The position numbers and the translations under genes are program-made. Shown piece by piece: positions 8,506 to 22,786 of a DNA stretch of 27,869 nucleotides; the stretch's first letter is position 1, and each line of letters starts with the position of its first letter. This DNA comes from a virus. The notes under the pieces were generated by a model, which was not told the DNA's origin, searched no databases, and saw only the letters and a program-made list of their open reading frames with translations. The stretch spans positions 1-27,869 of the IMG/VR virus record IMGVR_UViG_3300028030_000050; one strand, written 5' to 3'.

Positions 8506-8529
8506 TACTCTATAGATGAGGCTCAATAA

Positions 8530-9265: not shown

Positions 9266-9295
9266 TTAGGCCAGGACGCATGTCCCGGCCTAACT
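9264..9295. terminator. Bidirectional terminator hairpin between convergent operons
   Basis: The 14-base arms (AGTTAGGCCAGGAC paired with GTCCCGGCCTAACT, one A-C mismatch) enclose a GCAT loop. The structure includes the end of the stop codon of the upstream gene. It lies between converging transcription units, so it probably ends both. No strong T tract is present. Confidence 0.7.
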
Positions 9296-9309
9296 AGCAT
9301 GTAGGGTAG

Positions 9310-10002
9310 CTACGCCTGTATAGGCTCGCCTTCGTCACCATCTGAGCCGTTTCCGTTATCACCCCCCTTCTTGACCTCCTCGATGGTGTCATGCATCGCC
9401 GCTAGGAGTTGCGCCAGCTCCTCCGCGTGGTCAGGGTGCAGCCCCAGCAACACCATCTGACTCACGGCGCTACCGTCGCTAGCCATCAGCGTGTTATTAC
9501 TGATGGCCGCCCAGAGGTGTGGCCTCAGCCAGCTCGGGGCATCCTGGTAGGCGGCCCCGGCGGTCACATGGTCGCAGCGGTCAATCCACGCCTCGACCTC
9601 ATGCACCGCCTCCTCATCGAGCGGCGTCCATTGCAGGGTGTAGGCTAGCTCGGCGTAATCTCGCATGACCTGAGAGGGTTCACCCCGGCTGAGCAGGTAC
9701 ATGCCTAGCGCGCCCGCGATGTTCACCGTCACCACCCAGTAGCGGCCATCATGCGGCCCCACCAGCACCGCCGTGTAGTGAGGCCGCTCCTCATTGCGCG
9801 ACTCATGGTAGTCGCGCATGGCCTCCATGAGTTGGACCTGTAGCGGGCTCTTAGTGCTCGCAATCACCGGGATGGACCCACCGAACATTAGCGCGGGGCC
9901 TGGCATGATGTCCTCAGTTAGGCTGTCTACCACCGGTTTTACGTCCGCCGGGTAGATGTTAGGCACCCAGGGCATTTTCTCATTACTCATCCGCTCGCTC
10001 AT
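9310..10002 (-). CDS. Hypothetical protein of minus-strand operon
   Basis: The gene encodes 230 residues with no motif I recognise. It starts at the ATG at 10002 with a GGAGG site. The N-terminal half is strand/helix mixed (TAVLVGPHDGRYWVVTVN), the middle is helical and acidic, and the last 20 residues are a Gly/Asp/Asn/Glu-rich flexible tail. It has its own predicted promoter at 10041-10069 and ends at the convergent terminator. It could be an early host-takeover or lysogeny-associated accessory gene. I cannot assign a function. Confidence 0.75.
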   Translation of the reverse strand: MSERMSNEKMPWVPNIYPADVKPVVDSLTEDIMPGPALMFGGSIPVIASTKSPLQVQLMEAMRDYHESRNEERPHYTAVLVGPHDGRYWVVTVNIAGALGMYLLSRGEPSQVMRDYAELAYTLQWTPLDEEAVHEVEAWIDRCDHVTAGAAYQDAPSWLRPHLWAAISNNTLMASDGSAVSQMVLLGLHPDHAEELAQLLAAMHDTIEEVKKGGDNGNGSDGDEGEPIQA

Positions 10003-10040
10003 TTCGCTCCTCCTTTCAGTAGCCGCCTGGCTACAGGCTC

Positions 10041-10069
10041 AGTATAGCACATTATGCCTACTATGTCTA
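10041..10069 (-). promoter_or_regulatory. Sigma70-like promoter with extended -10
   Basis: On the minus strand, TAGACA (10069-10064) is followed after 17 bases by TATACT (10046-10041), preceded by TGC, which gives the extended form TGCTATACT. The same extended -10 recurs at four places on the plus strand. It reads towards the gene ending at 9310. Confidence 0.7.
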
Positions 10070-10294
10070 GTGCAGGTACAGCTCCGCCGCCTGCATCTCC
10101 GCCGCGCTCCACGCCGCCAGCCTCCAACTCGCCCAGATAGCGAGCGCTAGCGCTAGATGCACCGCACCGACAACTACCCACCAGCGCCAGCTAGAGCCCC
10201 AGAGCAGGCGCAGCGCTAGCAGCAGCAATAAGGCCAGCAGGTACTCACTCACCGCGCCCGCCGCCAGCAACCAAAATAGCTCACTCCCTACCAT
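10067..10294 (-). CDS. Small membrane protein
   Basis: This 75-residue protein is mostly hydrophobic, with about two membrane segments (roughly residues 5-32 and 37-58) separated by a SSWRW loop. It starts at the ATG at 10294 with GGAGG 8 bases upstream, and its 5' end overlaps the preceding minus gene by 14 bases. It is paired with another small membrane protein, which suggests they act together in the envelope, perhaps in superinfection exclusion. No family is recognised. Confidence 0.6.
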   Translation of the reverse strand: MVGSELFWLLAAGAVSEYLLALLLLLALRLLWGSSWRWWVVVGAVHLALALAIWASWRLAAWSAAEMQAAELYLH

Positions 10295-10496
10295 GAGTAG
10301 CCTCCGCCCAGGCCGAGAGCGCGAGCATGGTGATGCTCATACCCACGGCCAGCAGGTACACCACACCATAGGCCCAGGTGGGTACGGGGCCTAGGTGCAT
10401 TGCCTGCATCCCTAGCCCCACTACCCAGGCTGAGCCCAGGACCGCTACCACTCCTAACGCCGCCGCTATTAACGCCGCCAAAACTCCAGCCATCAT
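10281..10496 (-). CDS. Small membrane protein
   Basis: This 71-residue protein has two hydrophobic helices (about 4-30 and 39-62) and a polar C-terminal end. Its ATG at 10496 overlaps the stop of the upstream minus gene (ATGA), so the two are translationally coupled. Together with the following membrane gene it forms a pair in the operon that runs away from the divergent promoter. The function is unknown; membrane exclusion proteins of phages have this size and topology, but that is an inference. Confidence 0.6.
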   Translation of the reverse strand: MMAGVLAALIAAALGVVAVLGSAWVVGLGMQAMHLGPVPTWAYGVVYLLAVGMSITMLALSAWAEATHGRE

Positions 10497-10735
10497 TCCA
10501 CCTCCCGTAGGTCCGTATACTGGCGCAGGCTGACCACCGGCCAGTAGTTACCAGCCGCCGCCAGCAGCCGCTCGTATGCCGCCTGGATAACCTCCCGCGC
10601 CATAGCCCGCGCCAGCACAACCTCACGACCGCCGGCGGTTACAACTACCAACCTCCAGAGGCCATCACCGCCGGCGATGCGCACGTCGTCGCCGGGTCCG
10701 AGAACGTAGAACCCGTCCTCATGCCTCACTACCAT
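10493..10735 (-). CDS. Hypothetical protein, 80 residues
   Basis: This is a soluble protein with an N-terminal strand-rich half (FYVLGPGDDVRIAGGDGLWR, SH3-like in feel) and a helical C-terminal half. It starts at the ATG at 10735 with GGAGG 6 bases before it and overlaps the upstream gene by 17 bases. The N-terminal pattern (long-range Gly-Asp turns between short strands) resembles another small gene at 17532-17798, which has a similar PGDLIQVVDVERGEQPVG stretch. The two may be distant relatives. The function is unknown. Confidence 0.55.
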   Translation of the reverse strand: MVVRHEDGFYVLGPGDDVRIAGGDGLWRLVVVTAGGREVVLARAMAREVIQAAYERLLAAAGNYWPVVSLRQYTDLREVE

Positions 10736-11012
10736 CGGTAACCTCCTTCCACAACTCGCGTAGCCGCTGGGTGTGAGCTGCTAGGTGTGACAACACCGCG
10801 CAGGGGTGTGACCCTGGCAGCGGCTGGAACACCGGCGGCTCGACGCCCGCGCCACGCAGCGCCGCCTCTAGCGTGTCTACCGCCATCCCGTATGCCCTAA
10901 CTAGGTTATCGGCCTCCCGCCGCAGCATGGCGGCCGTGTTAGGCAGGTCCAGCAACACCTGGATAGCCTCGTTACCTAGCTCTATCAGTTCAGGGTCTAT
11001 CGGTTTGCTCAT
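10719..11012 (-). CDS. Hypothetical protein, first gene of minus operon
   Basis: I place the start at the ATG at 11012 (protein MSKPIDPEL...), which has an AGGAGG site. A longer frame reaching 11105 would run back through the promoter into the opposite gene. The 97-residue product is largely helical (residues 10-55) with a Pro-rich turn (VFQPLPGSHP) and a final helix. As the first gene after the divergent promoter it is transcribed opposite the XRE regulator, as a repressor or maintenance gene would be. I see no DNA-binding motif in it. Confidence 0.6.
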   Translation of the reverse strand: MSKPIDPELIELGNEAIQVLLDLPNTAAMLRREADNLVRAYGMAVDTLEAALRGAGVEPPVFQPLPGSHPCAVLSHLAAHTQRLRELWKEVTDGSEA

Positions 11013-11018
11013 CTGCTG

Positions 11019-11073
11019 CCTCCTCTCGCTAGCATTATATGACATCGCGGGGTATAATGCTACTGAGAGGAGG
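11019..11073. promoter_or_regulatory. Palindromic divergent promoter / operator
   Basis: Two 21-base arms, 11019-11039 and 11053-11073, are inverted copies with two mismatches, around a 13-base spacer. Each arm carries a TATAAT (11034-11039 on minus, 11053-11058 on plus) and, further out, the AGGAGG ribosome site of the gene it faces. The -35 position of each promoter falls inside the arm of the other and is weak, so the two promoters compete for overlapping DNA. This is a typical layout for a genetic switch. Confidence 0.75.
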
Positions 11074-11081
11074 TGATAGAC

Positions 11082-11324
11082 GTGGCCGAAACGCCCAGCA
11101 ACCACATACTGAGGCGGCTCCGTAAGCAGCTCGGGCTATCCCAGCCAGAGCTGGAGGCCATAGCCGGCGTATCGCTGTACTACATAGGCCGGATGGAGCT
11201 AGGCCGGCATTGTCCTAGCCTACGCACCATCCGCCGCCTGGCGCATGGTCTACACGCAGCGGGGCTAGACATGGACGAGCAGGATATAGTCTGCCTGCTA
11301 GTCCGCGAGTGGGAGTGTACGTAG
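11082..11324 (+). CDS. XRE/Cro-like helix-turn-helix regulator
   Basis: The start is the GTG at 11082, 8 bases after the AGGAGG; the GTG at 11073 lies inside that site. The 80-residue protein is essentially a single HTH_3 domain: helix 1 (HILRRLRKQLGLS), the HTH at residues about 19-40 (QPELEAIAGVSLYYIGRMELG) and the closing helices (LRTIRRLAHGLHAAG). The size and single-domain form resemble Cro more than a two-domain CI repressor. It lies at a divergent palindromic promoter that it very probably binds. Confidence 0.85.
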   Translation: MAETPSNHILRRLRKQLGLSQPELEAIAGVSLYYIGRMELGRHCPSLRTIRRLAHGLHAAGLDMDEQDIVCLLVREWECT

Positions 11325-11336
11325 AGGAGGTACTAG

Positions 11337-12320
11337 ATGAGCCGTACTGAAATAGTGCAGCAGGGGCCAGTCATGTCGCTGGCCGAGATGCGTGAGGTCG
11401 CTGAGGCTATGGTCGCGAGCGGCCTCACGTCGTTTCAGACCCCAGAGCAGGCGCTCGTCCTGATGCTCCAGGCGCAGGCCGACGGGCAGCACCCGATGAA
11501 GGCCGCGCAGGAGTACCATATTATCCACGACGAGCGGAACAACCGGACCTACCCTAGCCTCCGCGCGGACGCCATGCTCGCGCGTTTCCAGCGGGCCGGT
11601 GGCCGGGTGCGGTGGATAGAGCGGACGCCTAGGGCGGTCGAGGCTGAGTTCTACCACCCCGGCCTGGTCGAGCCCGTGCGCGTCCGCTGGACACTAGAGG
11701 ACGCGCAGCGGGCGGGGCTGGCTAACCGCCGGAGCTGGCGGCAGTACCCGCGCCAGATGCTCACCGCCCGCGTGGTTAGTGAGGGCGTGCGTATCGCGTA
11801 CCCGGCGGTGGCGACCGGCATCTACACGCCGGAGGAGGTACAGGATTTTGACGCTACGCCGCCAGTCCGCGTAGAGGCCGAGGTGGTGACCGCCGAGCCC
11901 GCCTCTAGTGAGGAGATAGACGAGGCCCTGGAGTCGCGCGAAGAGGGTGGTGGTGAGCAGGCCGCGCCGACGCCCGCGCAACCGGCTAACGACCGCGCTA
12001 CGCTCGCACGTGCAGTAGGCGCGTTGTTCGAGGCCCTGGGGTTGGTAGACCGCGAGGTCAACAGGCAGCTACTCAACATCGTGCTAGAGGCAGACATCCA
12101 GAGCCCTAGTGAGCTGACCACCGACCAGCTCAAGCGGGCCTGGGAGTACCTAACGGCTCTGGCTATGGCCGCCGGCGATGCTGACCAGAGCAAACTGCCG
12201 CGCCTGCCCGAGTACGTGGCCGCCGTGGTAGCCACGGGCTCCGCGCCTCCTAGCGACGCCGAGGCGCTGATGGTAGACTACGTGACGTGGCTAGAGTCAG
12301 CGGAACCGGTAGACGAATAG
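11337..12320 (+). CDS. recT: RecT-like single-strand annealing protein
   Basis: This 327-residue protein has the RecT/RedB-type pattern found in many phages: an N-terminal helix region ending in MLQAQADGQHPMKAAQEYHI, then SLRADAMLARFQRAGG (about residues 65-80), a Trp/Glu strand pair, and the WTLEDAQRAGL to YPRQMLTARVVSEGVR block (about 121-155). The C-terminal third (after 185) is acidic and poorly conserved. RecT proteins anneal complementary single strands in phage recombination and replication. No partner exonuclease is seen nearby, which is unusual for a full recET-type pair. It is followed by a hairpin and then the replication gene. Confidence 0.75.
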   Translation: MSRTEIVQQGPVMSLAEMREVAEAMVASGLTSFQTPEQALVLMLQAQADGQHPMKAAQEYHIIHDERNNRTYPSLRADAMLARFQRAGGRVRWIERTPRAVEAEFYHPGLVEPVRVRWTLEDAQRAGLANRRSWRQYPRQMLTARVVSEGVRIAYPAVATGIYTPEEVQDFDATPPVRVEAEVVTAEPASSEEIDEALESREEGGGEQAAPTPAQPANDRATLARAVGALFEALGLVDREVNRQLLNIVLEADIQSPSELTTDQLKRAWEYLTALAMAAGDADQSKLPRLPEYVAAVVATGSAPPSDAEALMVDYVTWLESAEPVDE

Positions 12321-12419
12321 GGATATAAGCTCACCACCTCCCCGGTGAGTGGGGAGGTGGTGGGTGAAAGGAGGCGCTAGACGAGCGCAACTACATTCTA
12401 CCATGACCGGAGGTAACTG
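12321..12419 (+). promoter_or_regulatory. Leader with strong hairpin and 5-codon micro-ORF
   Basis: The hairpin at 12332-12362 has perfect 12-base arms (CACCACCTCCCC and its complement) and a GGTGAGT loop. It is followed by GGTGAAAGGAGGC, a ribosome-site leader like the one before 16167 but with no start codon after it. A micro-ORF at 12403-12420 (ATG plus four codons) spans the next ribosome site and its TGA overlaps the ATG of the replication gene (12420). The hairpin may terminate or attenuate transcription of the replication gene. Confidence 0.5.
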
Positions 12420-13283
12420 ATGCGATTGCGAAAAATGCCCAGCCCCTATACGAGTATAGCGAATGACGTACTCCGTGACCAGACCCTCTCGCTCCGCGCG
12501 AAGGGGCTACTGGCGCTCCTACTGAGCCTGCCTGATAACTGGCGGTTCAACCTCACGTGGATTGTCGAGCAGAGCCGCGAGGGGCGTGATGCTACTAGAG
12601 CGGCGCTGGCTGAGCTGCGAGAGAGGCGCTACGTGGTCACGGCTCCAGCCCGCGACGAGAACGGAAAACTAGCGGGCCACGACTGGTACATCAGCGACAG
12701 CCCGATAGACCCAGATACACTAGAGGCCGCGGGCGTAGAGCTGGATGAGGAGCAACCCGCCGAGCTACGGGAACCTAGTACTACGGCAAACCCGCAGTAC
12801 GGGGAAACCGCAGCTACAAATAAAGAAGTAACAAATAAAGAGCCTACAAAAACATCTCCTACTACTACTTACTCACCCCTTAGTACACAGGCGAGCCGCC
12901 TGGTGAGTCAGAAGGAGATGTGGGTCAAAACAAAAAAACGAGAGCAGGAGGTGCTGGGCGCATTACGCGCCCACGACCCAGGGCTAGTGCCTAGGCTCAA
13001 CGGCCTGCACGTCAGGCTAAATAGGCGCGATAGCCGTGAGGCCATGATGCGCTGGGTGGCTCACCAGCTACACCCTAGGCTCCAGGAGCTGGGGCCGGGG
13101 CCGTTCGTGACCACCATCGAGCAGGCGCTCGATAAAATCGAGGCCAACCCGATGATTAACAATCCGTTCGCCTACATCGCCAAACAACTAGAGCGGGCGC
13201 GTGTAGAGCAGCACGCCCGCGTAGCACATGGACAGCCGGCTATCCCGCCGGAGCAGTTTTTGGCGATGCTAATGGAGGTGTGA
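12420..13283 (+). CDS. Helix-turn-helix replication protein (replisome organizer type)
   Basis: This 287-residue protein opens with a winged-helix segment common to phage replication initiators (residues 10-70: DQTLSLRAKGLLALLLSLPD, then a helix-turn-helix and ALAELRERRYV). The middle (about 120-160) is a Thr/Asn/Lys linker in an AT-rich stretch of DNA with a repeated 11-base word. The C-terminal part (about 165-285) is helical and could be a DnaD-like or helicase-loader contact region. It follows the recT-like gene and precedes RusA, and is probably the origin-binding protein. There is no Walker motif. Confidence 0.7.
   Translation: MRLRKMPSPYTSIANDVLRDQTLSLRAKGLLALLLSLPDNWRFNLTWIVEQSREGRDATRAALAELRERRYVVTAPARDENGKLAGHDWYISDSPIDPDTLEAAGVELDEEQPAELREPSTTANPQYGETAATNKEVTNKEPTKTSPTTTYSPLSTQASRLVSQKEMWVKTKKREQEVLGALRAHDPGLVPRLNGLHVRLNRRDSREAMMRWVAHQLHPRLQELGPGPFVTTIEQALDKIEANPMINNPFAYIAKQLERARVEQHARVAHGQPAIPPEQFLAMLMEV
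12816..12841 (+). repeat. AT-rich 11-bp direct repeats in replication gene
   Basis: ACAAATAAAGA occurs at 12816-12826 and 12831-12841. They lie in the most AT-rich stretch of this gene, in the linker region. Origins of lambdoid phages lie in the same place, inside the initiator gene. This could be an origin, but the repeat also simply encodes Thr-Asn-Lys-Glu twice. Confidence 0.4.
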
Positions 13284-13285
13284 TG

Positions 13286-13651
13286 ATGAGCGAGCAGGTA
13301 CAGGACAGGCTAGAGCACGTGGATTTCGGCGGCTGCCCCTGGTGCGGGGCGGAGCGGCACGTCGAGATAGACGGCATTAGCGCCGTGACGCCGCCAGAGG
13401 ACTGCTGCATCGAGAGCGTCGTCTGGCAGCTCGCCTGGCGGCATCAGAGTCCGGAGTACCAGGACACGGTGCCGGCCATGATGCAGGTGCTCCGCGACAA
13501 GCTCGACGCTGAGGGGCTCACCGGCGCGGCGCGAAAAAACCGCATCAATCAGGCTATCCAAGCGGTGCGCGAGCGGCGGCGCTCTAGTGAGCGCATAATC
13601 TCGGCTATAGCAGGAGTGCTCGCTAGGCGGGCTACGGCCCAGAAACTCTAG
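13286..13651 (+). CDS. Small Cys-containing protein, zinc-ribbon-like
   Basis: The encoded protein has 121 residues. The ATG at 13286 lies 7 bases after GGAGG; GTG 13280 and ATG 13283 are in frame but closer. Near the N-terminus it has a CPWCGAE motif, then a CC pair about 25 residues later, which together could bind one zinc ion. The rest is helical, with a basic stretch (RKNRINQAIQAVRERRRSS). The start overlaps the replication gene end, so the genes are coupled. A role in replication or transcription is likely from context, but no family is recognised. Confidence 0.6.
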   Translation: MSEQVQDRLEHVDFGGCPWCGAERHVEIDGISAVTPPEDCCIESVVWQLAWRHQSPEYQDTVPAMMQVLRDKLDAEGLTGAARKNRINQAIQAVRERRRSSERIISAIAGVLARRATAQKL

Positions 13652-13660
13652 GAGGGGAGA

Positions 13661-14056
13661 ATGATGGCGAAACGGAAACCAAAAATCGGGAGGCGGTTGA
13701 TGGTCTACATGCCCTGGCCGCCTAGCATCAACGACTACTACGGCAACCGGCGCGGCGGTGGCCGCTACCTACTCCCTCACGCCCGCGCGTTCCGGCGCTC
13801 CGTGGGCTGGCTGGTCAGCGTAGCTAGCGATGGCTGGGGACGGCTGCCTATAACCGGCCCCGTGCGCGTGCAGCTCCAGGCATTCCCGCCGGACCGCCGC
13901 CGCTATGACCTGGATAACCGCGAGAAGGCCATTTTCGACGCACTCGAGGCCGCTGGGGTCATCAAAGACGACAGCCAGGTGGTCGAGAAGGCTGCGAAAA
14001 AAATGGAGCCGGTCACCGGCGGGGCCTACCTGGTCATAGTCGAGGAGCTGCTATGA
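13661..14056 (+). CDS. rusA: RusA-family Holliday junction resolvase
   Basis: This 131-residue protein has the RusA layout: MPWPPSINDYYG (residues 17-28), a central strand pair, the acidic motif YDLDN (82-86), Asp93 in the following helix, and KDDSQV (102-107). These Asp residues correspond to the metal-binding set of RusA. It cuts four-way junctions, resolving recombination or replication intermediates before packaging. It lies with recT-like and replication genes in one operon. The start may be the ATG at 13661 or 13664; the site is GGAGGGG. Confidence 0.9.
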   Translation: MMAKRKPKIGRRLMVYMPWPPSINDYYGNRRGGGRYLLPHARAFRRSVGWLVSVASDGWGRLPITGPVRVQLQAFPPDRRRYDLDNREKAIFDALEAAGVIKDDSQVVEKAAKKMEPVTGGAYLVIVEELL

Positions 14057-14277
14057 GCCTGCTACGAGCCGAGTCGCACGTCATGCTGGCCGAGGCCAAC
14101 GCGCAGGATGCTCTGGACATCCTCGACCGGCTACGCGCCGCCCATCCCCAGCACGTAGACATTGCGCGGAGTAACCTCACCGAGGCGCTCCGCCGCGTCA
14201 GGGTGGCTCTGGGCGCGATAGCCGACGCGATGGCGGCGGAGAGGAGGCAACGTGATGAGCAGGACACGACAGACTGA
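14053..14277 (+). CDS. Small helical protein, unknown
   Basis: This 74-residue protein starts at an ATGA overlap with the RusA stop and has a GAGGAG site, so it is translationally coupled to it. The product is two long helices (about 5-30 and 38-62) with heptad-like Leu/Ala spacing, which suggests a helical hairpin or dimer. The last 12 residues are charged. No family is recognised. Confidence 0.6.
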   Translation: MSLLRAESHVMLAEANAQDALDILDRLRAAHPQHVDIARSNLTEALRRVRVALGAIADAMAAERRQRDEQDTTD

Positions 14278-14695
14278 GGCGGTATATGCAGAGTACCGGC
14301 GCGCGGCGGAGTTTCACGCCCGCGCACTCGAGGGGCTAGTGTCCCTATGGCATAGGGGCGCGGCTATAGTCCTGACCTGGGCGCTGCTGGAGCTACTAGC
14401 GGTCCCCGTGCGCATTAGCCGCTGGGACTATGCAGCCCTAACGCTAGGGCTCCTAACGGCTCTGGGCTATCTGGCATACCCCCGGTACGCCTATGACCAT
14501 GTACGGCCTAACGACATGACCCGCGACCACGCGGACATACTGGCGGGCGGGGCCGAGCGCGTCTACGCGCAATGGGCGAGTGACGCCTACCATGCCGCCT
14601 GGATGCAGATGCAGGCCAACCGCCGTGAGGCGTACCGGGTGGTTGCTCTAGCCGTGGTGCTGGCGGTGAGCCTGCTAGTGCAGATGTACGGATAG
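14255..14695 (+). CDS. Membrane protein with three hydrophobic segments
   Basis: The ATG at 14255 (7 bases after GAGGAGG) is preferred to the GTG at 14252. The 146-residue protein has hydrophobic segments at about 35-55, 60-76 and 126-144, with a charged helical loop in between (ADILAGGAERVYAQWASD). It is the only obvious multi-pass membrane protein of the early region. Its function is unknown; early phage membrane proteins often act in exclusion or host modulation. Confidence 0.65.
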   Translation: MSRTRQTEAVYAEYRRAAEFHARALEGLVSLWHRGAAIVLTWALLELLAVPVRISRWDYAALTLGLLTALGYLAYPRYAYDHVRPNDMTRDHADILAGGAERVYAQWASDAYHAAWMQMQANRREAYRVVALAVVLAVSLLVQMYG

Positions 14696-14710
14696 GAGAG
14701 GAGGCGCGAG

Positions 14711-15070
14711 ATGAGAGTACCTGAGCAGTTAGTGGAGAGGGCGCGAGCGCTGCTGCTCGCGGCTGGTGAGGATGGCATACCACGCTGGTCATTCCCGGCG
14801 CTATTCGGCGATGACCGCATGGCTAGAGCGGCTATCACCGAGGTGAGGCTCCGGGGCTGGTTGCCCGTAGTAGTCACTAGGCGCGGCGAGCACACCATCT
14901 ACAGGGTGGCTCAGAGCGATGAGGAGTACCGGCGCTACAGGGCGTCGCTCATCAGCCGCATCCGCTCGCTCGCGGACGTGATAGACGGCCTGGATAGGGC
15001 CTGGGAGGGACATGCGGGCCGGCGCGTCTACCAGCTCCGCCTCTGGGACGAGGAGGTCGTAGATGAGTAG
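14711..15070 (+). CDS. Winged-helix-like small protein
   Basis: This 119-residue protein has a helix-strand pattern near residues 20-66 (a helix-turn-helix-like DDRMARAAITEVRLRGW followed by a strand pair LPVVVTRRGEHTIYRVA). This resembles a winged-helix DNA-binding domain. The C-terminal part is a long charged helix (SLISRIRSLADVIDGLDRA) that could dimerise. It overlaps the next gene by 8 bases. DNA binding is an inference from the pattern. Confidence 0.6.
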   Translation: MRVPEQLVERARALLLAAGEDGIPRWSFPALFGDDRMARAAITEVRLRGWLPVVVTRRGEHTIYRVAQSDEEYRRYRASLISRIRSLADVIDGLDRAWEGHAGRRVYQLRLWDEEVVDE

Positions 15071-15410
15071 GATACCGGTCAGGGTACACGTGGATACCGG
15101 CGCGCTCCGGGCCACGGTGGATGGCTGGGTGGACGCCGAGGCGCTAGCGCGCGCCGAGGACGGTATAGGGGTTAGGGTCGAGGTCGAGAGCGTGCTGGGC
15201 ATGAGCGCCCGCGCTATCACCACCCCCACGTTCCCGCCGGAGCTGGTAGATAGCTACATGACCCGCGAGCTGAGTAAGGGCCAGGCGTTAGACCGCCTGG
15301 CCTCGCTCTGGCGCTCCGGCTCCTGGCCGCTCTACGCTACGGCTGATGAGATAGAGGACCGGCGGTTAGTGCCGCTGCCCGGCAGTCAGCCACTCATGGA
15401 GGTGCAGTAA
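15063..15410 (+). CDS. Hypothetical protein, 115 residues
   Basis: The gene starts at an ATG overlapping the previous stop region, with GAGGAGG 8 bases before it. The N-terminal half is strand-rich (RVHVDTGALRATVDGW, VRVEVESVLG) and the second half has two helices around an LSKGQALDRLASLW stretch. It shares one base with the four-HTH gene that follows, so the three genes 14711-16135 form one translational unit. No family is recognised. Confidence 0.6.
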   Translation: MSRIPVRVHVDTGALRATVDGWVDAEALARAEDGIGVRVEVESVLGMSARAITTPTFPPELVDSYMTRELSKGQALDRLASLWRSGSWPLYATADEIEDRRLVPLPGSQPLMEVQ

Positions 15411-16135
15411 TGGCGCGGATTAACCTGGATGGCTGGTACACGGTTACCGAGTTAGCGGAGCTAGCCTGCACTAGCCGCCATGCCGTCCTCTACCATCTCC
15501 GGCGGCATGAGCGCAAGGGCATGGCCTACATTCAGAGAGGTAACCGGCTACTCATCACCCCTAACGCGGCGGAGAGGTTTTTGGCTGGCGGCGGTATCCC
15601 ACGCGGCTGCCCGCGCCCCGGCTACACCCCGCTACAGGAGCTAGCGCCCGCGCTAGGCGTGTCGCCTAATCTCCTGCGCAAACAATGCCTCACCGGGCGC
15701 GTTGACTGCTACCGCTACCGCCATACCATCTACGTGCATACGTACCAGGCCCGCGATGCCAACGCTGGGGGGCTGCCGCCTGGTTGGGTCTGGGCTAGGG
15801 AGATAGCTGCGCAGATTGGCCTCAGCCGCTCCGCGTTAGTACGTAGGCTACGCCGTCGCGGGAAACCAATCCGCCGCATCATGCATCAGGCGGCGGTTAG
15901 GAGGGCGGATGTCAACGAGGTCATGGACATCGCGCCAGCAGGCGCGGTCCCAGTCCAGCGCGTAGCCCGTCTAGCTGGTGTGACACGTAACGCCGTTACG
16001 TACTGGTGCCGCTACCACGGCTACCCGGTCTACTACCAGTCACGCGGGGGTGGCCGGGTAGCGATGATAGCTAGCGACATCGCCGCTAGGTATCTAGCGG
16101 GGAGGCGAGGCCGGCGAGTGGACAATGTAGCATAG
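15410..16135 (+). CDS. DNA-binding protein with four tandem HTH units
   Basis: This 241-residue protein reads as four repeats of one MerR/excisionase-like unit, a helix-turn-helix followed by a short strand: residues about 10-58 (YTVTELAELACTSRHAVLYHL), 72-115 (YTPLQELAPALGVSPNLLRK), 126-172 (WVWAREIAAQIGLSRSALVRRL) and 179-230 (VPVQRVARLAGVTRNAVTYW). Each has the A-L-A/G-V-S/T-x-x-x-V/L core. The protein is strongly basic. A repeated promoter with a 16-base dyad follows immediately, so it may bind such sites. Multi-HTH proteins of this length are uncommon. Confidence 0.75.
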   Translation: MARINLDGWYTVTELAELACTSRHAVLYHLRRHERKGMAYIQRGNRLLITPNAAERFLAGGGIPRGCPRPGYTPLQELAPALGVSPNLLRKQCLTGRVDCYRYRHTIYVHTYQARDANAGGLPPGWVWAREIAAQIGLSRSALVRRLRRRGKPIRRIMHQAAVRRADVNEVMDIAPAGAVPVQRVARLAGVTRNAVTYWCRYHGYPVYYQSRGGGRVAMIASDIAARYLAGRRGRRVDNVA

Positions 16136-16147
16136 ATATGCTATACT
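16119..16147 (+). promoter_or_regulatory. Sigma70-like promoter with dyad operator
   Basis: TGGACA (16119-16124), 17 bases, then TATACT (16142-16147) preceded by TGC. A perfect dyad TAGCATA-GA-TATGCTA (16128-16143) lies in the spacer and -10. The 19 bases 16127-16145 are identical to 20419-20437. It drives the gene at 16167. Confidence 0.8.
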
Positions 16148-16166
16148 GGGGGTGAAAGGAGGCAGT

Positions 16167-16670
16167 ATGAGCGTGATTAACTACGCAACTGACCAGGCCC
16201 GCGTCAACAACATTCATTGGGCCGTGCAGGTTGCGCTCGAGCAGGCGCTCGGGACGACTCACGTGAGCGTCACCCCCGACGAGATGCGCGTGCTGGAGCG
16301 CCTGGGGATTAAGCCGCGCGTCTACAGTACTAACGTTGGTGATGAGCGCCGCTACTGGGTGGAGTACAGTCCTCTAGCCCCGCGCCTACTCACGCAGGCC
16401 ATCATTGCGGCCAACGCCCAGAGCTGGAACCTGTACGAGCCGGGCGCTGACCCCCTGGCTCCAGAGGCCGTGGACATGGTGCGTAGGCCGGAGCGCCCTG
16501 TGGGGGTATCTGATGGTGACGCGCTACGCGCGGCCTGGACCATCCTAACGGCCCTCCGCTACAACATAGACGAGCGGGCTCCGTTGGGGCGGTTCGCTCG
16601 CGAGGCCCTCAACAAACTGGTAGACCAGGTAGCCTACCAGGTGATGCACGTAGACGTGGAGGGGTTTTAG
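16167..16670 (+). CDS. Hypothetical early protein, 167 residues
   Basis: The start is the ATG at 16167 (MSVINYATDQ), with AAAGGAGG upstream; an earlier GTG would lie inside the leader. The protein is helical and mildly acidic, with no motif I know. The C-terminal 25 residues (EALNKLVDQVAYQVMHVDV) form one amphipathic helix. It is the first gene behind the repeated promoter and should be strongly expressed. The end of the gene, including the stop, forms a perfect 14-base-arm hairpin. It may be an early host-takeover or anti-defence protein, but this is only an idea. Confidence 0.65.
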   Translation: MSVINYATDQARVNNIHWAVQVALEQALGTTHVSVTPDEMRVLERLGIKPRVYSTNVGDERRYWVEYSPLAPRLLTQAIIAANAQSWNLYEPGADPLAPEAVDMVRRPERPVGVSDGDALRAAWTILTALRYNIDERAPLGRFAREALNKLVDQVAYQVMHVDVEGF

Positions 16671-16685
16671 TCCCCTCCACGTCTA
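16651..16685 (+). terminator. Perfect hairpin over the stop codon
   Basis: The arms TAGACGTGGAGGGG (16651-16664) and its complement (16672-16685) enclose the loop TTTTAGT, which holds the stop codon. The stem is 14 perfect base pairs. No T tract follows; the next gene's AGAGGAGG starts right after the stem. It probably attenuates transcription or protects the 3' end of the first cistron. Confidence 0.65.
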
Positions 16686-16700
16686 GAGAGGAGGTAGTAG

Positions 16701-17051
16701 ATGAGCGTGATGGTAGTGACAGACAGGATGCGGATGCTAGACCGGATACGTGAGCAGATTACCCCTAGCACCTGCGTTAATGCGGCCCGCGTCCTCACGG
16801 TGCTAGAGCGCCTGGGCCTAGTAGAGGACTATAGTGACCCCGACGCCTTGGAGGGCATTCCCCTCCAGGCGGTGCTTGATGACCTTTACGCCGGGCGCGC
16901 AGATGTTCTGGAGCTGACGGACACGGAGCGGATGGAGCGCGGGCTCTGGCGGGTATACCAGGGACCGCCTAGCGCTCTGCGGGCCGTTGCGTTGAGGTGG
17001 GTGAGTGAGCCTAACCACCTGGTTAGGTGGCCCGGAGAGGAGGTGGAGTGA
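16701..17051 (+). CDS. Hypothetical protein, 116 residues
   Basis: The protein contains a helix-turn-helix-like central part (residues 22-60: CVNAARVLTVLERLGLVEDYSD, then IPLQAVLDDLYAGRADVLELT) that looks like a winged helix with ARVLTVLERLGLV as a recognition element. The remainder is Trp- and Arg-rich. It starts at an ATG with AGAGGAGG just behind the hairpin. It overlaps the next gene by one base (TGATG). DNA binding is possible but unproven. Confidence 0.6.
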   Translation: MSVMVVTDRMRMLDRIREQITPSTCVNAARVLTVLERLGLVEDYSDPDALEGIPLQAVLDDLYAGRADVLELTDTERMERGLWRVYQGPPSALRAVALRWVSEPNHLVRWPGEEVE

Positions 17052-17551
17052 TGGCCTGGCCTACTAACGCCGCCGCATTGCTGGCTCAGGTGTACCGGCG
17101 CCTCACGCGCGTAGACGAGGAGCTGGGCCTCTCGGCCCTCCCGCCCGGCGAGATAGAGCATATGGCGGGCATAGCGCGGGACGCCGCTAGAGCATTGCGT
17201 CAGGGCATTTGCCCCCACGGCGGCCCGCCGGGACCGAGTGACCCCGCCGCTCGCGCGTGCTGGGCATTGACCCGCGCCGCCTATTTTGCGGCCCTCGACG
17301 TGCAGATGGAGCTAGAGGAGGCGCTGGAGGTCGAGGGGGTAGACCAGCGCGTGGCCCGGCTGGGCGGAGCCCGCGCTGCTGCCGCCATAGCTAGCGACAT
17401 AGCCGAGGCGCTAGGCTACCCCAGCGCCCGCGATTACCGTGAGGCGGCTAGTGACGCCATAGAGGAGGGTGACCCCTACCGCGCTCCCGAGGCGGAGCTG
17501 TTCTGCGCCAGGTACTGTGAGGAGGTTAGCAATGGTGCTAATCAGGACTAA
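17051..17551 (+). CDS. Hypothetical Ala-rich helical protein, 166 residues
   Basis: I start it at the ATG at 17051 (MAWPTNAAAL), which is coupled to the preceding stop and has GAGAGGAGG upstream. A longer frame from 17027 lies within the previous gene. The product is almost all helical, with one Cys-containing loop (QGICPHGGPPGPSDPAARAC) and a second Cys pair near the end (FCARYC). Whether these bind metal cannot be told. No family is recognised. Confidence 0.65.
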   Translation: MAWPTNAAALLAQVYRRLTRVDEELGLSALPPGEIEHMAGIARDAARALRQGICPHGGPPGPSDPAARACWALTRAAYFAALDVQMELEEALEVEGVDQRVARLGGARAAAAIASDIAEALGYPSARDYREAASDAIEEGDPYRAPEAELFCARYCEEVSNGANQD

Positions 17552-17798
17552 CAACGGCGGGTACTACTACCCCGCCCCCGGTGACCTAATCCAGGTCGTG
17601 GACGTCGAGCGCGGTGAGCAGCCGGTAGGCTACCGCGTAGCCGCGACTAATACCCAGACCGGTACTAGGGTGTATCTAAGTCGGGTATACCCGCTACCAA
17701 GCGTCGCCCAGGTCGCCAGCGACGCTCTCATCGAGCGCCTGGCGGCGCTGGGCGTTGTAGTAGTTGACGCGGCTGGTGAGGAGGCCATAGATGATTGA
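17532..17798 (+). CDS. Hypothetical strand-rich protein, 88 residues
   Basis: The start is the ATG at 17532, with GAGGAGG before it; the longer frame from 17469 is a shadow inside the upstream gene. The first 60 residues are strand-rich (GGYYYPAPGDLIQVVDVERG, then YRVAATNTQTGTRVYLSRVY), like a small barrel. The last 25 form a helix and a strand. The PGDLIQV stretch resembles LGPGDDVRI of the minus-strand protein at 10493-10735. It overlaps both neighbours, so all three are coupled. Confidence 0.6.
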   Translation: MVLIRTNNGGYYYPAPGDLIQVVDVERGEQPVGYRVAATNTQTGTRVYLSRVYPLPSVAQVASDALIERLAALGVVVVDAAGEEAIDD

Positions 17799-18285
17799 CC
17801 CCGTAGGCTGGCTGACCGCAGCGGCAGCAGCCATAGCGCTGCTAATCGGCGGCCAGCCTACCGGCTGGGGGTTCCAGGCCGGGGCCGTTATAACTGACCA
17901 GGGCGTGACGCTAGGCGTCACGCCCGTGGTCATTATGGACCTATACCTATACCCGCCCCACTTCGACGCCATTACTCTCGGCGGGACCGTGATAGTGACC
18001 GCCCCAGGCAAGCCCCCTGGCTGGCAGCGTTGGGTAGACCACTATGAACTGGGACACGTGGACGGCTGGCAGCGGTTCGGCCTCGCCTACCCTAGGGCCG
18101 TGCTCGAGCACCCATGCGCCTATGACCCGGCAGCGCCGCTAGTTAATCATTGCTCCCCCTGGTACATGCGCCAGCCGTGGACCGCGCCTATCCCGCCTCC
18201 CCCGACGCACTACGCCCTGCACGTGACCATACCGCCCAGCTCCTGGCCCGCCGCGAGCACCGCCGCCGCGCCCTGGCATAAGTAG
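17791..18285 (+). CDS. Membrane-anchored protein with HxExxH-like motif
   Basis: The 164-residue product has an N-terminal hydrophobic segment (residues about 5-20, rich in Ala/Ile/Leu) without a strong basic start, then a strand-rich region, and at about residue 84 the stretch DHYELGHVDGWQRFG. This resembles the zinc motif of small metallopeptidase-like proteins in which a HExxH is followed by a Trp/Arg/Gly stretch, but there is an extra Tyr between His and Glu, so the motif is atypical. The C-terminal tail is Pro/Ala-rich. It could be a peptidase-like or degenerate protein outside the membrane. I cannot assign a function. Confidence 0.55.
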   Translation: MIDPVGWLTAAAAAIALLIGGQPTGWGFQAGAVITDQGVTLGVTPVVIMDLYLYPPHFDAITLGGTVIVTAPGKPPGWQRWVDHYELGHVDGWQRFGLAYPRAVLEHPCAYDPAAPLVNHCSPWYMRQPWTAPIPPPPTHYALHVTIPPSSWPAASTAAAPWHK

Positions 18286-18302
18286 ATATATAGTGCTATA
18301 AT
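18273..18302 (+). promoter_or_regulatory. Extended -10 promoter before 18323
   Basis: TATAAT (18297-18302) is preceded by TGC, giving TGCTATAATG as in the other copies. CTGGCA (18273-18278), 18 bases upstream, is a weak -35. The upstream dyad is partial (TATAG-TG-CTATA). The AGGAGG of the next gene follows. Confidence 0.65.
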
Positions 18303-18322
18303 GAGGGAGAGAGGAGGCGGAT

Positions 18323-18652
18323 ATGCGGACACTTTTTTACCGGATGCACAGCGGGCGCGTTAGTGAGGCCGAGTTTTTGGCCGAGGCCAGCTCTTGGCGC
18401 TGGGATTTTGACGAGGCTGGCGCGCTCTATGAGCGCCAGTTGCCTGGGGTCTACAGCGCGTTTGAGCGCCCGGTGGACCTGCTCACCTACTACGACGGCT
18501 CTAACGATGACCTGGACGTGGCGATTTTCGAGGGCGAGGTAGTGGATCGACCCCAGAGTGATGCGCGGAATGAGGTGCTGGTGCGTCCTACGCGCCTGGT
18601 GGGATGGACTAGCGTGCGCGAGCTGGCGGCGGAGGCGGGTTGGACATTATAG
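18323..18652 (+). CDS. Hypothetical early protein, 109 residues
   Basis: This single gene has its own promoter and a strong ribosome site (GAGGAGG). The protein is acidic and mixed alpha/beta, with DLLTYYDGSNDDLDVAIFEG in the middle followed by EVLVRPTRLVGW. I do not know the family. The next promoter's palindrome starts at 18645 and includes the stop codon, so the gene is bounded by regulatory sequences at both ends. It also carries the only GATC of the window (18545). Small acidic proteins in such places are often inhibitors of host functions; that is only an inference. Confidence 0.6.
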   Translation: MRTLFYRMHSGRVSEAEFLAEASSWRWDFDEAGALYERQLPGVYSAFERPVDLLTYYDGSNDDLDVAIFEGEVVDRPQSDARNEVLVRPTRLVGWTSVRELAAEAGWTL

Positions 18653-18670
18653 CATGACAATGCTATAATG
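18641..18670 (+). promoter_or_regulatory. Strong promoter with perfect 11-bp-arm operator
   Basis: TGGACA (18641-18646), 17 bases, TATAAT (18664-18669) with TGC before it. The inverted repeat CATTATAGCAT-GACA-ATGCTATAATG (18645-18670) is perfect and carries TATAAT on both strands. The stop of the upstream gene lies inside it. This is the best-conserved copy of the promoter family. Confidence 0.8.
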
Positions 18671-18692
18671 GAAGCGTGAAAGGGGGCAGCAA

Positions 18693-18908
18693 ATGACGGC
18701 GATGGTTAAAATCTACGACTGGCGGGCGCGCAAATCGCACATCATCACTAAGCGGTTCCCTAGCATCATCGAGTATGCGTTCTGGCTCCAGAAACTGTAC
18801 CAGGCGCACGGCTGGGAATGGCGCACGCAGGACGGGTTCACGTTCCACGCCAAAGCGACCGACCAGCGCTACGTGGACATCTACCCGACCAGCAAGGGGG
18901 TGGCCTGA
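18693..18908 (+). CDS. Hypothetical protein, 71 residues
   Basis: This is a basic, aromatic-rich small protein. The first half is helical with strands (MVKIYDWRARKSHIITKRF) and the second half carries WEWRTQDGFTFHAKATDQRY. It starts at an ATG (18693) with AGGGGG upstream, just behind the strongest promoter. It overlaps the DnaJ-type zinc gene by one base (TGATG), so both are expressed together. No family is recognised. Confidence 0.55.
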   Translation: MTAMVKIYDWRARKSHIITKRFPSIIEYAFWLQKLYQAHGWEWRTQDGFTFHAKATDQRYVDIYPTSKGVA

Positions 18909-19216
18909 TGGCCGCCCCTATCGTGCTAGCTAAATGGCCCTACCGCTCAGGTGAGCAGGACCGCTGGGTGTACGAGAGCCGGACCTGCCCGTGCTGCGGG
19001 GGTGAGGGCATAGCCCCCGAGGGCGGCTGGACCTGCGGGCTCTGCGGCGGGTCGGGGGTCGTGTTCGAGGACGGGTACTACGACGGCCAGGCCGCCCGTG
19101 CCCTGAGCCTGGCAGCTAGTAGCGACCCTAATGACCGGCGGGCGCTGCTGGACCTGTGCGGTTGCGCAGACCGGGAGTACCAGGAGAGGCATAGAGAGGA
19201 GGCGCGAGAATGGTGA
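18908..19216 (+). CDS. DnaJ-type zinc-finger protein
   Basis: I start it at the ATG at 18908, which is coupled to the stop before it; a longer frame from 18818 lies inside the previous gene. The 102-residue product has two CxxCxGxG motifs, CPCCGGEG at about residue 27 and CGLCGGSG at about residue 41, which together bind one zinc ion as in the DnaJ central domain. It has no J domain, so it is not a co-chaperone itself. A later DLCGCADRE stretch may add Cys. Phages often encode such small zinc proteins; their role is not known. Confidence 0.7.
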   Translation: MAAPIVLAKWPYRSGEQDRWVYESRTCPCCGGEGIAPEGGWTCGLCGGSGVVFEDGYYDGQAARALSLAASSDPNDRRALLDLCGCADREYQERHREEAREW

Positions 19217-19479
19217 CCGTGAGGCGAGTAGGCGACCTGATTGAGGTAGCCGACGGGCTATACCGGCTAACTGGCCGCGTGACCTACGGCCCGCTTTACG
19301 CCCTATTTAGGGGCTGGCTACACACCATACGGGGCCGCGAGGTCATCGTGGCCCGGAAATGGCGGGCCACCGGCCAGCTCGTGATGGCGGCTGATTTACA
19401 GGCCGAGGAGCGTGAGCAGGTAGAGCGGATGGTCACGCAGGCCATCCGAGGCTGGGAAACGGAAGGAGGTAGTAGATGA
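19210..19479 (+). CDS. Hypothetical protein, 89 residues
   Basis: The gene starts at the ATG at 19210 with GAGAGGAGG upstream and overlaps the zinc gene by 7 bases. The protein has a strand-rich basic first half (YRLTGRVTYGPLYALFRGWL, HTIRGREVIVARKW) and a helical end (EEREQVERMVTQAIRGW). The basic strand part could contact nucleic acid. The stop overlaps the next start. No family is recognised. Confidence 0.55.
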   Translation: MVTVRRVGDLIEVADGLYRLTGRVTYGPLYALFRGWLHTIRGREVIVARKWRATGQLVMAADLQAEEREQVERMVTQAIRGWETEGGSR

Positions 19480-19898
19480 ACGTGCCGATTACTCTGTACC
19501 TGAAAATGACAAACTGGCAGGCAGGCTACCCTAGCGAGGAGCAGGTGCTCAACTACCTCTGGCTACCAACGGATGGTAGCTGGTGGGTTAGCAACCTCGG
19601 CGGGCGCGAGCCCGTGCTAGTGGCCTACCCCCGCGCCGGGGGCTGGATGCTCGAGTGGTACTCGGCCAAACGTGTAGGCCCCGCCTGCGCCGGCGGATTG
19701 CCCGTACTCCAGGCGAGCGTACATGGGCCGGAAAAACTCCGGCTGCACCAGGGCGCGGTCATCCGCGACCCTAACGGCGAGCCCTACCACCCCGGCTGGG
19801 TGCCGGTGGTCTGGTGGGATGCCCGCCGGAACCGCTGGAGCGAGGCCGATGAGCAGCGCTGGCCCTACTGGTGCCCGGAGGCTCCTCGTGATGAGTGA
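19476..19898 (+). CDS. Trp-rich hypothetical protein, 140 residues
   Basis: This 140-residue protein is unusually rich in Trp, with pairs such as GSWWVSN, PVVWWDARRNRW and RWPYWCPEAP. It is mostly strands and loops and starts at an ATG with GGAGG 9 bases before it, overlapping the preceding gene. The pattern resembles short phage DUF proteins with a beta core, but I cannot name one. The stop overlaps the start of the next gene (ATGAGTGA). Confidence 0.55.
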   Translation: MNVPITLYLKMTNWQAGYPSEEQVLNYLWLPTDGSWWVSNLGGREPVLVAYPRAGGWMLEWYSAKRVGPACAGGLPVLQASVHGPEKLRLHQGAVIRDPNGEPYHPGWVPVVWWDARRNRWSEADEQRWPYWCPEAPRDE

Positions 19899-20169
19899 CC
19901 GCCGCCTGGCCGCCGCCCTAGCCCTGGCCCTCCTAGACCCGGAGGGCCAGGGCATGACCCTCGCGGAGTTCGTGGCCGCGCTCCACGCCGCCGATGCCTG
20001 GCATGGCCTGCACTACGGCAGGTCGGTTGGCATAGCCGAGCACGTGATGAGGGCTGTGGGAGCCGCGAGCGCCGAGATGCTGACCTGCCTCTCGGATAGC
20101 GAGGAGCAGGCGCTACGGATTGCGCTAGGGTTAGAGGATGAGGTGACTGATGACGCCGGGCATAACTGA
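19891..20169 (+). CDS. Hypothetical helical protein, 92 residues
   Basis: The start is the ATG at 19891 (MSDRRLAAAL), overlapping the upstream stop; an earlier ATG at 19723 lies in a shadow frame inside the Trp-rich gene. The protein is nearly all helical and acidic, with no recognised motif. It overlaps the next gene by 20 bases. The operon of coupled small genes runs from 18693 to 20413. Confidence 0.55.
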   Translation: MSDRRLAAALALALLDPEGQGMTLAEFVAALHAADAWHGLHYGRSVGIAEHVMRAVGAASAEMLTCLSDSEEQALRIALGLEDEVTDDAGHN

Positions 20170-20413
20170 GGGGACTATCAGCAGACTGCGTACCGCGCTC
20201 GCCGAGGCGGATGCCGTAGACCTAGCCCTGGAGCTGGCCGACCTAGAGGAGTTACAGGCGCGGCTCTACCGCGATGCGGTGGACGCCATCGCCGCCGATG
20301 AGCCGGGTGGTCGGGTGAGGCACGAGGTGCTGATGGCTCTCCGGGAGGCGGCGGGTAGTATAGCCGGTGAGGTCTACGCCGCGCTAGAGGCTCAGCTCGC
20401 AGGCGATGAGTAG
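20150..20413 (+). CDS. Hypothetical helical protein, 87 residues
   Basis: The gene starts at the ATG at 20150 with GAGGTGA 5 bases upstream. It is an acidic, entirely helical product, with heptad-like Leu/Ala repeats in residues 10-45 (ALAEADAVDLALELADLEEL). This looks like a helical bundle or coiled-coil dimer. It is the last gene before the repeated promoter at 20411. No family is recognised. Confidence 0.55.
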   Translation: MTPGITEGTISRLRTALAEADAVDLALELADLEELQARLYRDAVDAIAADEPGGRVRHEVLMALREAAGSIAGEVYAALEAQLAGDE

Positions 20414-20439
20414 ACGTAGTAGCATAGATATGCTATAAT
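20411..20439 (+). promoter_or_regulatory. Promoter with dyad operator, copy of 16119-16147
   Basis: TAGACG (20411-20416), 17 bases, TATAAT (20434-20439) after TGC. The dyad TAGCATA-GA-TATGCTA at 20420-20435 is the same as at 16128-16143. It reads into the 52-residue gene at 20458. Confidence 0.8.
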
Positions 20440-20457
20440 GAGGGTAGGAGGTGGCAA

Positions 20458-20616
20458 ATGACTAAGCGCGAGATGATGGTGGCTGAGGCTACTCTCCAGC
20501 GGATGCTCATCACCTACCCCGCTGCTCTCTGGCTAGAGGACATAGACCCTAGCGACTACTCTACCCTCGATGAGTTTTACGCGGCCCTCAGCCTGCTACG
20601 AGCCGAGAATAGCTAA
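20458..20616 (+). CDS. Small protein, 52 residues
   Basis: ATG at 20458 follows TAGGAGG and a strong promoter; the frame runs to TAA at 20614-20616. The protein MTKREMMVAEATLQRMLITY... is helical and acidic, with DPSDYSTLDEFYAAL near the end. It stands alone between a promoter and a terminator, so it is a complete, probably highly expressed unit. Short single genes of this kind are often regulators or inhibitors, but nothing in the sequence shows its target. Confidence 0.75.
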   Translation: MTKREMMVAEATLQRMLITYPAALWLEDIDPSDYSTLDEFYAALSLLRAENS

Positions 20617-20629
20617 CCCCTAGACGTAG

Positions 20630-20655
20630 AAGCCCCCGGCTAGCGCCGGGGGCTT
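20630..20655 (+). terminator. GC-rich terminator hairpin
   Basis: The arms AAGCCCCCGGC and its complement are perfect (11 bases) around a TAGC loop, followed by ACTTATT. It separates the early operon from the terminase/head operon and overlaps the region just before the -10 of the next gene. Confidence 0.8.
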
Positions 20656-20666
20656 ACTTATTGCGG

Positions 20667-20672
20667 TAGAAT
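20667..20672 (+). promoter_or_regulatory. -10 element of a probably leaderless gene
   Basis: TAGAAT ends 6 bases before the ATG at 20679, so transcription would begin about at the start codon. There is no ribosome site and no clear -35, because the hairpin occupies that place. Confidence 0.5.
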
Positions 20673-20678
20673 AGAGCT

Positions 20679-21461
20679 ATGGCGGACTGGAAAAACCGCA
20701 TCGTGGGCACGGGTGAGGTGGACCCTGGCGAGCTGACCCCTAACCCGCTGAACTGGAGGCGTCACCCTAGCACCCAGCAGGCCGCCGTGCGTGAGGCGCT
20801 GGAGAGGCTGGGCTGGGTGCAGCAGGTCATCGTCAACCGGCGCACGGGCCGCCTGATTGACGGCCACCTGCGCGTAGAGCTGGCGCGTGAGCGTGGTGAG
20901 CGCGTGCCCGTGCTCTACGTGGACCTAGAGGAGAGTGAGGAGCGGCTGGCGCTGGCTACACTAGACCCGCTAGCGGCCCTGGCCGAGGCCGATGATGAGG
21001 TGCTGGCGCGGCTCCTAGAGGACGTGCAGATAGAGGACGGTCCGCTGGCGGAGGTCATCAGCACGCTGGCCGGTGAGGAGCTGGAGGCCGTCCATGACCC
21101 TGACCCTGAATACTACACCGGCAAGCTCGACGGGCTCATCTACGAGCCCCAGGAGAGCGAGCCTCCGCCAGTTGCTGAGCTGTACGACACATCGAAAACC
21201 AGCGAGCTAGAGGACGCCATCATGGAGGCGGACCTGCCTGATGACGTGCGAGCGTTTTTGATGCTCGCCGCCCGCCGATTCACCGCGTTCCGCTACGACC
21301 GCATTGCTGAGTATTACGCTCACGCCTCCCCAGAGGTGCAGGAGTTGATGGAGCGGCTGGCGCTGGTCATCGTGGACTACGACCAGGCCATAGAGCTGGG
21401 GTTCGCGCGGCTGAGTGACGCCCTGGCCGAGGAGTATGAGCGGGTGATGGGGGATGCGTAG
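20679..21461 (+). CDS. ParB/Srx-like N-terminal domain protein
   Basis: This 260-residue protein has the ParB-nuclease/Srx fold pattern in residues about 12-95: a PNPLNWRRHP start, a helix (VREALERLGWVQQVIV), strand and turn GRLIDGHLRVELA (the DGHLR at 61-65 is the family's conserved turn) and VPVLYVDLEESEERLA. Phage proteins of this kind usually bind DNA and are often linked to base modification or methyltransferase genes. The C-terminal half is acidic and helical and unknown to me. It is the first gene of the packaging operon and overlaps the glycosyltransferase-like gene by 8 bases. There is no partner ParA, so plasmid partition is unlikely. Confidence 0.8.
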   Translation: MADWKNRIVGTGEVDPGELTPNPLNWRRHPSTQQAAVREALERLGWVQQVIVNRRTGRLIDGHLRVELARERGERVPVLYVDLEESEERLALATLDPLAALAEADDEVLARLLEDVQIEDGPLAEVISTLAGEELEAVHDPDPEYYTGKLDGLIYEPQESEPPPVAELYDTSKTSELEDAIMEADLPDDVRAFLMLAARRFTAFRYDRIAEYYAHASPEVQELMERLALVIVDYDQAIELGFARLSDALAEEYERVMGDA

Positions 21462-22783: not shown

Positions 22784-22786
22784 GCC

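Follow-up and report, generated by a model that had tools for sequence, protein, structure and literature searches.

A family of extended -10 promoters, three with a putative dyad operator, in a phage with no known close relatives

The window analyzed here comes from a phage of an uncultured host and spans the whole of virus record IMGVR_UViG_3300028030_000050 (27,869 nucleotides (nt), or 27.9 kb; 64% G+C). It carries five similar promoters, termed P1 to P5, and a 16-base-pair (bp) dyad of the form TAGCAT-N4-ATGCTA lies inside three of them. A promoter family heading small-gene units is well supported because the sites share a consensus and a position relative to genes, are recognized by leave-one-out models, and one of them is syntenic in a related 14-kb contig, L004. 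Putative dyad operators are supported at P2, P4 and P5 because the arms are conserved while the centre is free, and because a second relative, L003, has a palindrome in a promoter spacer. The best explanation as a whole, to which we give a probability of about 0.58, would be a set of sigma-70-type promoters in which the three dyads serve as operators of a dimeric phage regulator, a small XRE protein being the likeliest.

The promoter family

An earlier note on this DNA had listed five sites with a shared extended -10 box, and all five are present at the positions it gave. They are P1 (10041-10069, minus strand; TAGACA-N17-TATACT with a TGC extension) and, on the plus strand, P2 (16119-16147; TGGACA-N17-TATACT), P3 (18274-18302; TGGCAT-N17-TATAAT), P4 (18641-18669; TGGACA-N17-TATAAT) and P5 (20411-20439; TAGACG-N17-TATAAT). 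P3 had been placed at 18273-18302; the site exists, and a start at 18274 gives the best register, in which the spacer is 17 bp long and the -35 is weak. A -35 at 17 bases had been counted in four sites, and this spacing in fact applies to all five. In alignment, the sites read TAGACA tag TAGGCA taat GTGC TATACT (P1), TGGACA atg TAGCAT agat ATGC TATACT (P2), TGGCAT aag TAGATA tata GTGC TATAAT (P3), TGGACA tta TAGCAT gaca ATGC TATAAT (P4) and TAGACG tag TAGCAT agat ATGC TATAAT (P5). Common to all of them are TGC-TATAMT (with TATAMT at -10), a TRG-type -35, a G after the -10 and a feature that had been overlooked, a TAG at positions 4-6 of the 17-bp spacer.

The sequence TGCTATAMT has six exact matches in the window compared to 0.35 expected, and none of 100 shuffles contained six; the sixth match (18646-18654, minus strand) is the antisense half of a palindrome at P4 (18645-18670). 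As in sigma-70-type promoters, whose hexamers lie 16-18 bp apart and near consensus, 10-11 of the 12 hexamer positions match at each site, with a TG extension. When positions 9000-22800 were scanned with a generic sigma-70 model, nine sites were obtained compared to 2.9 in shuffles, and P1-P5 ranked as the top five. In leave-one-out models, built from four sites to find the fifth, the omitted site outscored the rest of the window except for 18274, above which one non-member ranked. Most likely it corresponds to the minus-strand half of the P4 palindrome, which is next-ranked in the full model. No further family members were obtained from the promoter-model scan of the window.

All five sites lie at gene junctions, often over the stop codon of the preceding gene, and an AGGAGG-like ribosome-binding site followed by an ATG is found shortly downstream of each. 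P1 serves a single leftward gene (9310-10002). P2 overlaps the 3' end of a helix-turn-helix (HTH) gene and precedes a small-gene unit starting with the ATG at 16167, P3 precedes a gene at 18323-18652, P4 a unit starting with the ATG at 18693 and P5 a gene at 20458-20616. P2-P5 divide a rightward block of small genes of unfamiliar function (16167-20616, plus strand) into four units, and a family search of the genes at 16152, 18323, 18693 and 20458 gave no family match. An Rfam search gave no match either, and a nucleotide search with P2 against known phages returned 18-nt chance matches only. P1-P5 would act as extended -10 sigma-70-type phage promoters, each giving a short transcript of one to a few small genes.

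Dyads within the promoter spacers

The dyad TAGCAT-AGAT-ATGCTA occupies positions 16128-16143 and 20420-20435, within the spacer and -10 of P2 and P5, respectively. At P4, a perfect palindrome with 11-bp arms, CATTATAGCAT-GACA-ATGCTATAATG (18645-18670), encloses TAGCAT-N4-ATGCTA at 18650-18665. This agrees with the earlier note, which had reported the 11-base-arm repeat, AGCAT exactly 5 bases ahead of TGC at three sites and 19 identical bases in two (16127-16145 and 20419-20437). TAGCAT-N4-ATGCTA occurs three times in the window compared to 0.01 expected, always within P2, P4 or P5 and nowhere else, a restriction that the earlier note had not mentioned. Comparing P4 with P2/P5, the left arm matches at 6/6 positions and ATGC at 4/4, the N4 centre at 0/4, the adjoining N3 at 1/3 and the 20-nt leader at 7/20. 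Arms kept around an unrelated centre and flanks are, judged from sequence, the mark of a two-fold symmetric (dimeric) protein site and not of a recent duplication. Its recurrence at three promoters is what would be expected of a dispersed phage-repressor regulon, in which several promoters of a phage share a site.

The same comparison bears on an explanation in which one strong constitutive promoter was copied through the block with the dyad hitch-hiking. The regions 16116-16164 and 20408-20456, which comprise P2 and P5 and their leaders, are 80% identical over 49 nt, and L004 contains a promoter-plus-leader repeat of 50 nt and 82% identity, as copying would produce. However, P4 has the arms in common with P2/P5 and neither the centre nor the leader, which is unexpected from duplication followed by drift. 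Moreover, the spacer is more conserved than the -35: between P2 and P5 the arms and N4 are kept (14/14) and the spacer is the same from the left arm on, the -35 matching at only 4/6 positions. We consider copying quite unlikely to account for the dyads.

The symmetry could also result from two extended -10 boxes that face away from each other and drive divergent transcription, with no need of a regulator. TGCTATAAT is present on both strands of 18645-18670, the geometry ATTATA-N12..14-TATAAT recurs at the divergent regions next to the XRE genes of the window and of L004, and in an unrelated contig (L009) this geometry forms a perfect palindrome, TTATAGCATAGATATGCTATAA, between divergent genes. 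Yet the 7-bp arms are perfect at 20411 and 16119, where the -10 on the minus strand is poor (TACTAC) and weak (TACATT), respectively, and none of P2, P4 and P5 has a leftward gene starting upstream of it. The two -10s of P4 are 18 bp apart, whereas described bidirectional promoters have one shared -10 (PMC12825309); a single -10 used on both strands is found neither at P4 nor at P5. This explanation, which appears unlikely overall, fails at P5 because the antisense -10 is lost there and the arms are kept.

The L009 palindrome (9780-9806; 36% G+C) carries the same word as P2/P5 and is likely a convergence on symmetric extended -10 boxes. L009 is one of three unrelated, AT-richer contigs (with L027 and L028) returned by a dyad search in viral contigs. 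Two of the three were found with the -35 offset in the search pattern and are not independent evidence; all three were set aside as support since they look like chance or convergence.

Lastly, the dyads might act in RNA, as hairpins that pause, process or attenuate read-through transcripts. The RNA of P4 (18641) does fold to -16.1 kcal/mol, but those of P2 and P5 are weaker (about -8 to -9 kcal/mol), the hairpins are not followed by a U-tract and the dyad element lies upstream of its own predicted start site. A role in RNA is very improbable.

With the dyads as operators, the spacer and first -10 bases of P2, P4 and P5 would double as a 16-bp site, TAGCAT-N4-ATGCTA, for a dimeric phage-encoded protein. 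The bound dimer would cover the spacer and the -10 and exclude RNA polymerase, and loss or titration of the regulator would allow the small genes to be transcribed together. We infer in this way that the promoters are transcribed and that the dyads are bound, for repression rather than activation, by a protein for which a candidate is given below. Repressor sites between the -35 and the -10 are known, for example that of Arc at P22 Pant, and the general control principle is not new; here it would operate in a phage for which no close relatives are known. The reading, if correct, supplies a concrete word for promoter and operator that can be tested in a phage group for which no cultured relative was found, and it places unfamiliar small genes under common control. 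Should the binder be confirmed, the word predicts co-switched genes and offers a simple means of reporting on the regulator.

Candidate regulators and related contigs

The likeliest binder, as a candidate, is a small XRE/HTH_3 regulator encoded at 11073-11324 (plus strand; 83 residues or slightly shorter) that matches HTH_3/HTH_31. Between its gene and the leftward operon lies a divergent promoter pair, TAGCATTATA-N13-TATAATGCTA (11030-11062), in which either strand has a -10 hexamer joined directly to a TAGCAT/ATGCTA half-site. This region had been missed in the earlier note, and these half-sites of the dyad word at its own divergent promoter are the reason for preferring the XRE protein.

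The second candidate is a protein of four tandem MerR/excisionase-like winged helices (15410-16135, plus strand), which might activate or repress the block right behind its gene. The gene lies just 5' of P2 and ends inside it, the order of gene and promoter is the same in L004, and the protein is kept there at 42% identity. A structural model from a two-sequence alignment (mean predicted local distance difference test, pLDDT, of 73; predicted template modelling score, pTM, of 0.34) was used for the domain types and, given the pTM, not for the domain arrangement. Single domains gave weak Foldseek matches, none below E 0.001, among them TraN, RacA, Pukovnik Xis and BldC. Multimers of BldC bind direct repeats (PMC5859096), so that a predicted tandem MerR/Xis-like array of this type would be a poor match for a 16-bp dyad. 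Furthermore, the protein is conserved in L004, yet the dyad is absent from that contig. On the modelled domains it is a less likely binder than the XRE protein, and as the regulator of the dyads it is distinctly improbable. In searches with this protein, L004 was the sole match among viral contigs, and genome contigs and known phages gave none.

A motif search in relatives, proposed in the earlier note, did not recover the TAGCAT dyad in L004; comparable designs built from other words were found in L003 and L004. L004 has in common with the window TerL (65% identity), the four-winged-helix protein, RusA and several small genes. Its promoter near 7900 corresponds in position to P2, being preceded by the HTH module and followed by the small-gene block, and its divergent region at 2327-2374, which separates XRE from the leftward operon, is equivalent to 11030-11062 of the window. 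GTATATAATGCGTATTGAGGAGGAAC is common to the promoter near 7900 and to the leftward promoter adjoining the XRE gene of L004, its copies being situated in the 50-nt repeat mentioned above. In L003 (18.4 kb; TerL 66% and portal 56% identity), a promoter on the minus strand (5474-5446) reads TTGACA-TGGTGCTAGCACCATGC-TACACT with an N17 spacer, most of which is taken up by an 18-bp perfect palindrome, CATGGTGCTAGCACCATG. GGTGCTAG occurs three times in L003, always within the divergent intergenic region that holds this promoter. In this small sample, which does not by itself name the binder, the promoters of each phage would seem to carry a word particular to that phage. It is doubtful that this extends to every regulated promoter of the phage group, each phage having a specific spacer palindrome that changes along with its regulator; the words would then be TAGCAT...ATGCTA in the window, GGTGCTAGCACC in L003 and GCGTAT words in L004. 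If it did, each phage would have a private operator for its accessory block, with no cross-repression by relatives.

Several points weigh against the dyads being operators of one XRE-type regulator. Firstly, the full dyad is missing at two of the five sites, 10041 and 18274, which retain the outer TAG...CTA alone. A single regulator for all five is therefore unproven, and from the earlier proposal of one regulator controlling several small-gene units we keep the promoter family and the dyad at three sites. Secondly, P2 and P5 could partly be duplicates, and plain duplication could also explain the stretch shared within L004, which takes in the ribosome-binding leader. Thirdly, the divergent region of the XRE gene contains half-sites and no full dyad, so that the XRE protein is a candidate and is not demonstrated. 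Finally, no close relative with an orthologous dyad was found for comparison, and the 28-kb fragment shows neither an integrase nor a CI-like cleavable repressor, so that a lysogenic role is not established.

TerL searches returned relatives of about 65-66% identity or lower, and the bacterial loci among them were distant only and did not identify the host. Beyond L004, the 77 loci of a RecT search had at most RusA and a distant portal in common with the window.

Two further observations concern these relatives. Two small genes are common to L004 (1581-2297, minus strand) and the window (14711-15070 and 18818-19216); they belong to rightward units in the window and to the XRE-divergent leftward operon in L004, which suggests that small genes may move between promoter units. 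In L003 (1677-5194), a CysH/PAPS-reductase-like gene comes after weak, ordered matches to the type IV CRISPR proteins Csf1, Csf2 and Csf3, all of these being far below curated cut-offs. The contig also has phage TerL, portal and tail genes, and the locus is possibly a phage-borne type IV-B-like locus.

Gene context and known systems

In the window, rightward tail and lysis genes extend to about 9265 and are followed by a leftward small-gene set running from 11011 down to 9310. A hairpin at 9262-9300, probably a two-way terminator, separates the rightward genes ending at 9265 from the leftward gene of P1. Rightward genes then encode XRE, RecT, a replication-initiation-like protein, a RusA-like protein and small proteins, and the last part comprises ParB-like, glycosyltransferase, TerL, portal/head and protease genes; ParB-like and some other gene names were read from the sequence with no family match behind them. 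Past the final gene of the block, a GC-rich hairpin (20632-20652, plus strand; RNA fold -26.5 kcal/mol) is a probable terminator. Strong hairpins are also found 3' of RecT (CCACCTCCCCGGTGAGTGGGGAGGTGG, 12330-12366) and near the gene end at 8495 (CACGGGGGTCTAGACCCCCGTG, 8482-8506), each a probable terminator or intergenic structure.

The ParB-like gene precedes TerS/TerL in both the window and L004, and in both a -10 box (TAGAAT within 20660-20690 and TATAAT within 9225-9245, respectively) stops 6-7 nt short of its ATG. This placement suggests that the packaging operon transcript may be leaderless and conserved. A TET-associated glycosyltransferase at 21454-22353 (Pfam PF20691, E 8e-24) points to glycosylated modified cytosines in the phage DNA; a TET-like oxygenase was not noticed in the window, with no direct search made for one.

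In its working, the present system resembles the scattered-operator regulons of SPbeta and P1 and, as regards its small genes, the cluster K ESAS elements, but membership in the SPBRE/MrpR, P1 C1 or ESAS systems is not claimed. Bidirectional promoters, in which start sites flank or fall within a single shared -10 (PMC12825309), are also symmetric (see also PMC10268837); unlike them, the -10s are separate here and antisense symmetry is not kept at P5. The stoperators of cluster A mycobacteriophages are short repressor-type sites, repeated over the phage genome, that are asymmetric and bound by a monomeric repressor that also stops elongation (PMC9283540, PMC4351075). They are 13 bp long, in one orientation and present off promoters as well, whereas the window dyad is symmetric and confined to promoters. 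The 17-bp dyads of cluster O mycobacteriophages, spread over the genome (PMC4351075), are likewise thought to bind a dimeric phage protein. They number more than 30 and lie mostly outside promoters, but here every copy is in a promoter. The ESAS elements of cluster K mycobacteriophages have 17-bp arms with a 4-13 bp spacer and are tied to a 13-bp start-associated sequence (PMC3203893). Like the present dyads, they are inverted repeats just 5' of the translation starts of many small phage genes with an unnamed binder, and their subcluster specificities recall the words that differ between the window, L003 and L004. Unlike ESAS, the repeats are embedded here in a TTGACA/TATAAT-type promoter, and the 13-bp GGGATAGGAGCCC beside the start codon is absent from the leaders of the five genes, as read directly. 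Phage P1 controls lytic genes through 22 asymmetric 17-bp C1 operators (PMC8546580), which are similarly dispersed over the genome, the window having three symmetric sites in 28 kb. In SPbeta, the 15-bp SPBRE motif is found in about ten promoter regions of a Bacillus prophage and is bound by the recombinase-fold repressor MrpR (PMC10516654). The element in the window differs in being a 16-bp dyad in the spacer with a regulator that is a candidate only; as with SPBRE, which was recognized in silico long before its repressor, it is repeated at promoters of mostly unfamiliar phage genes.

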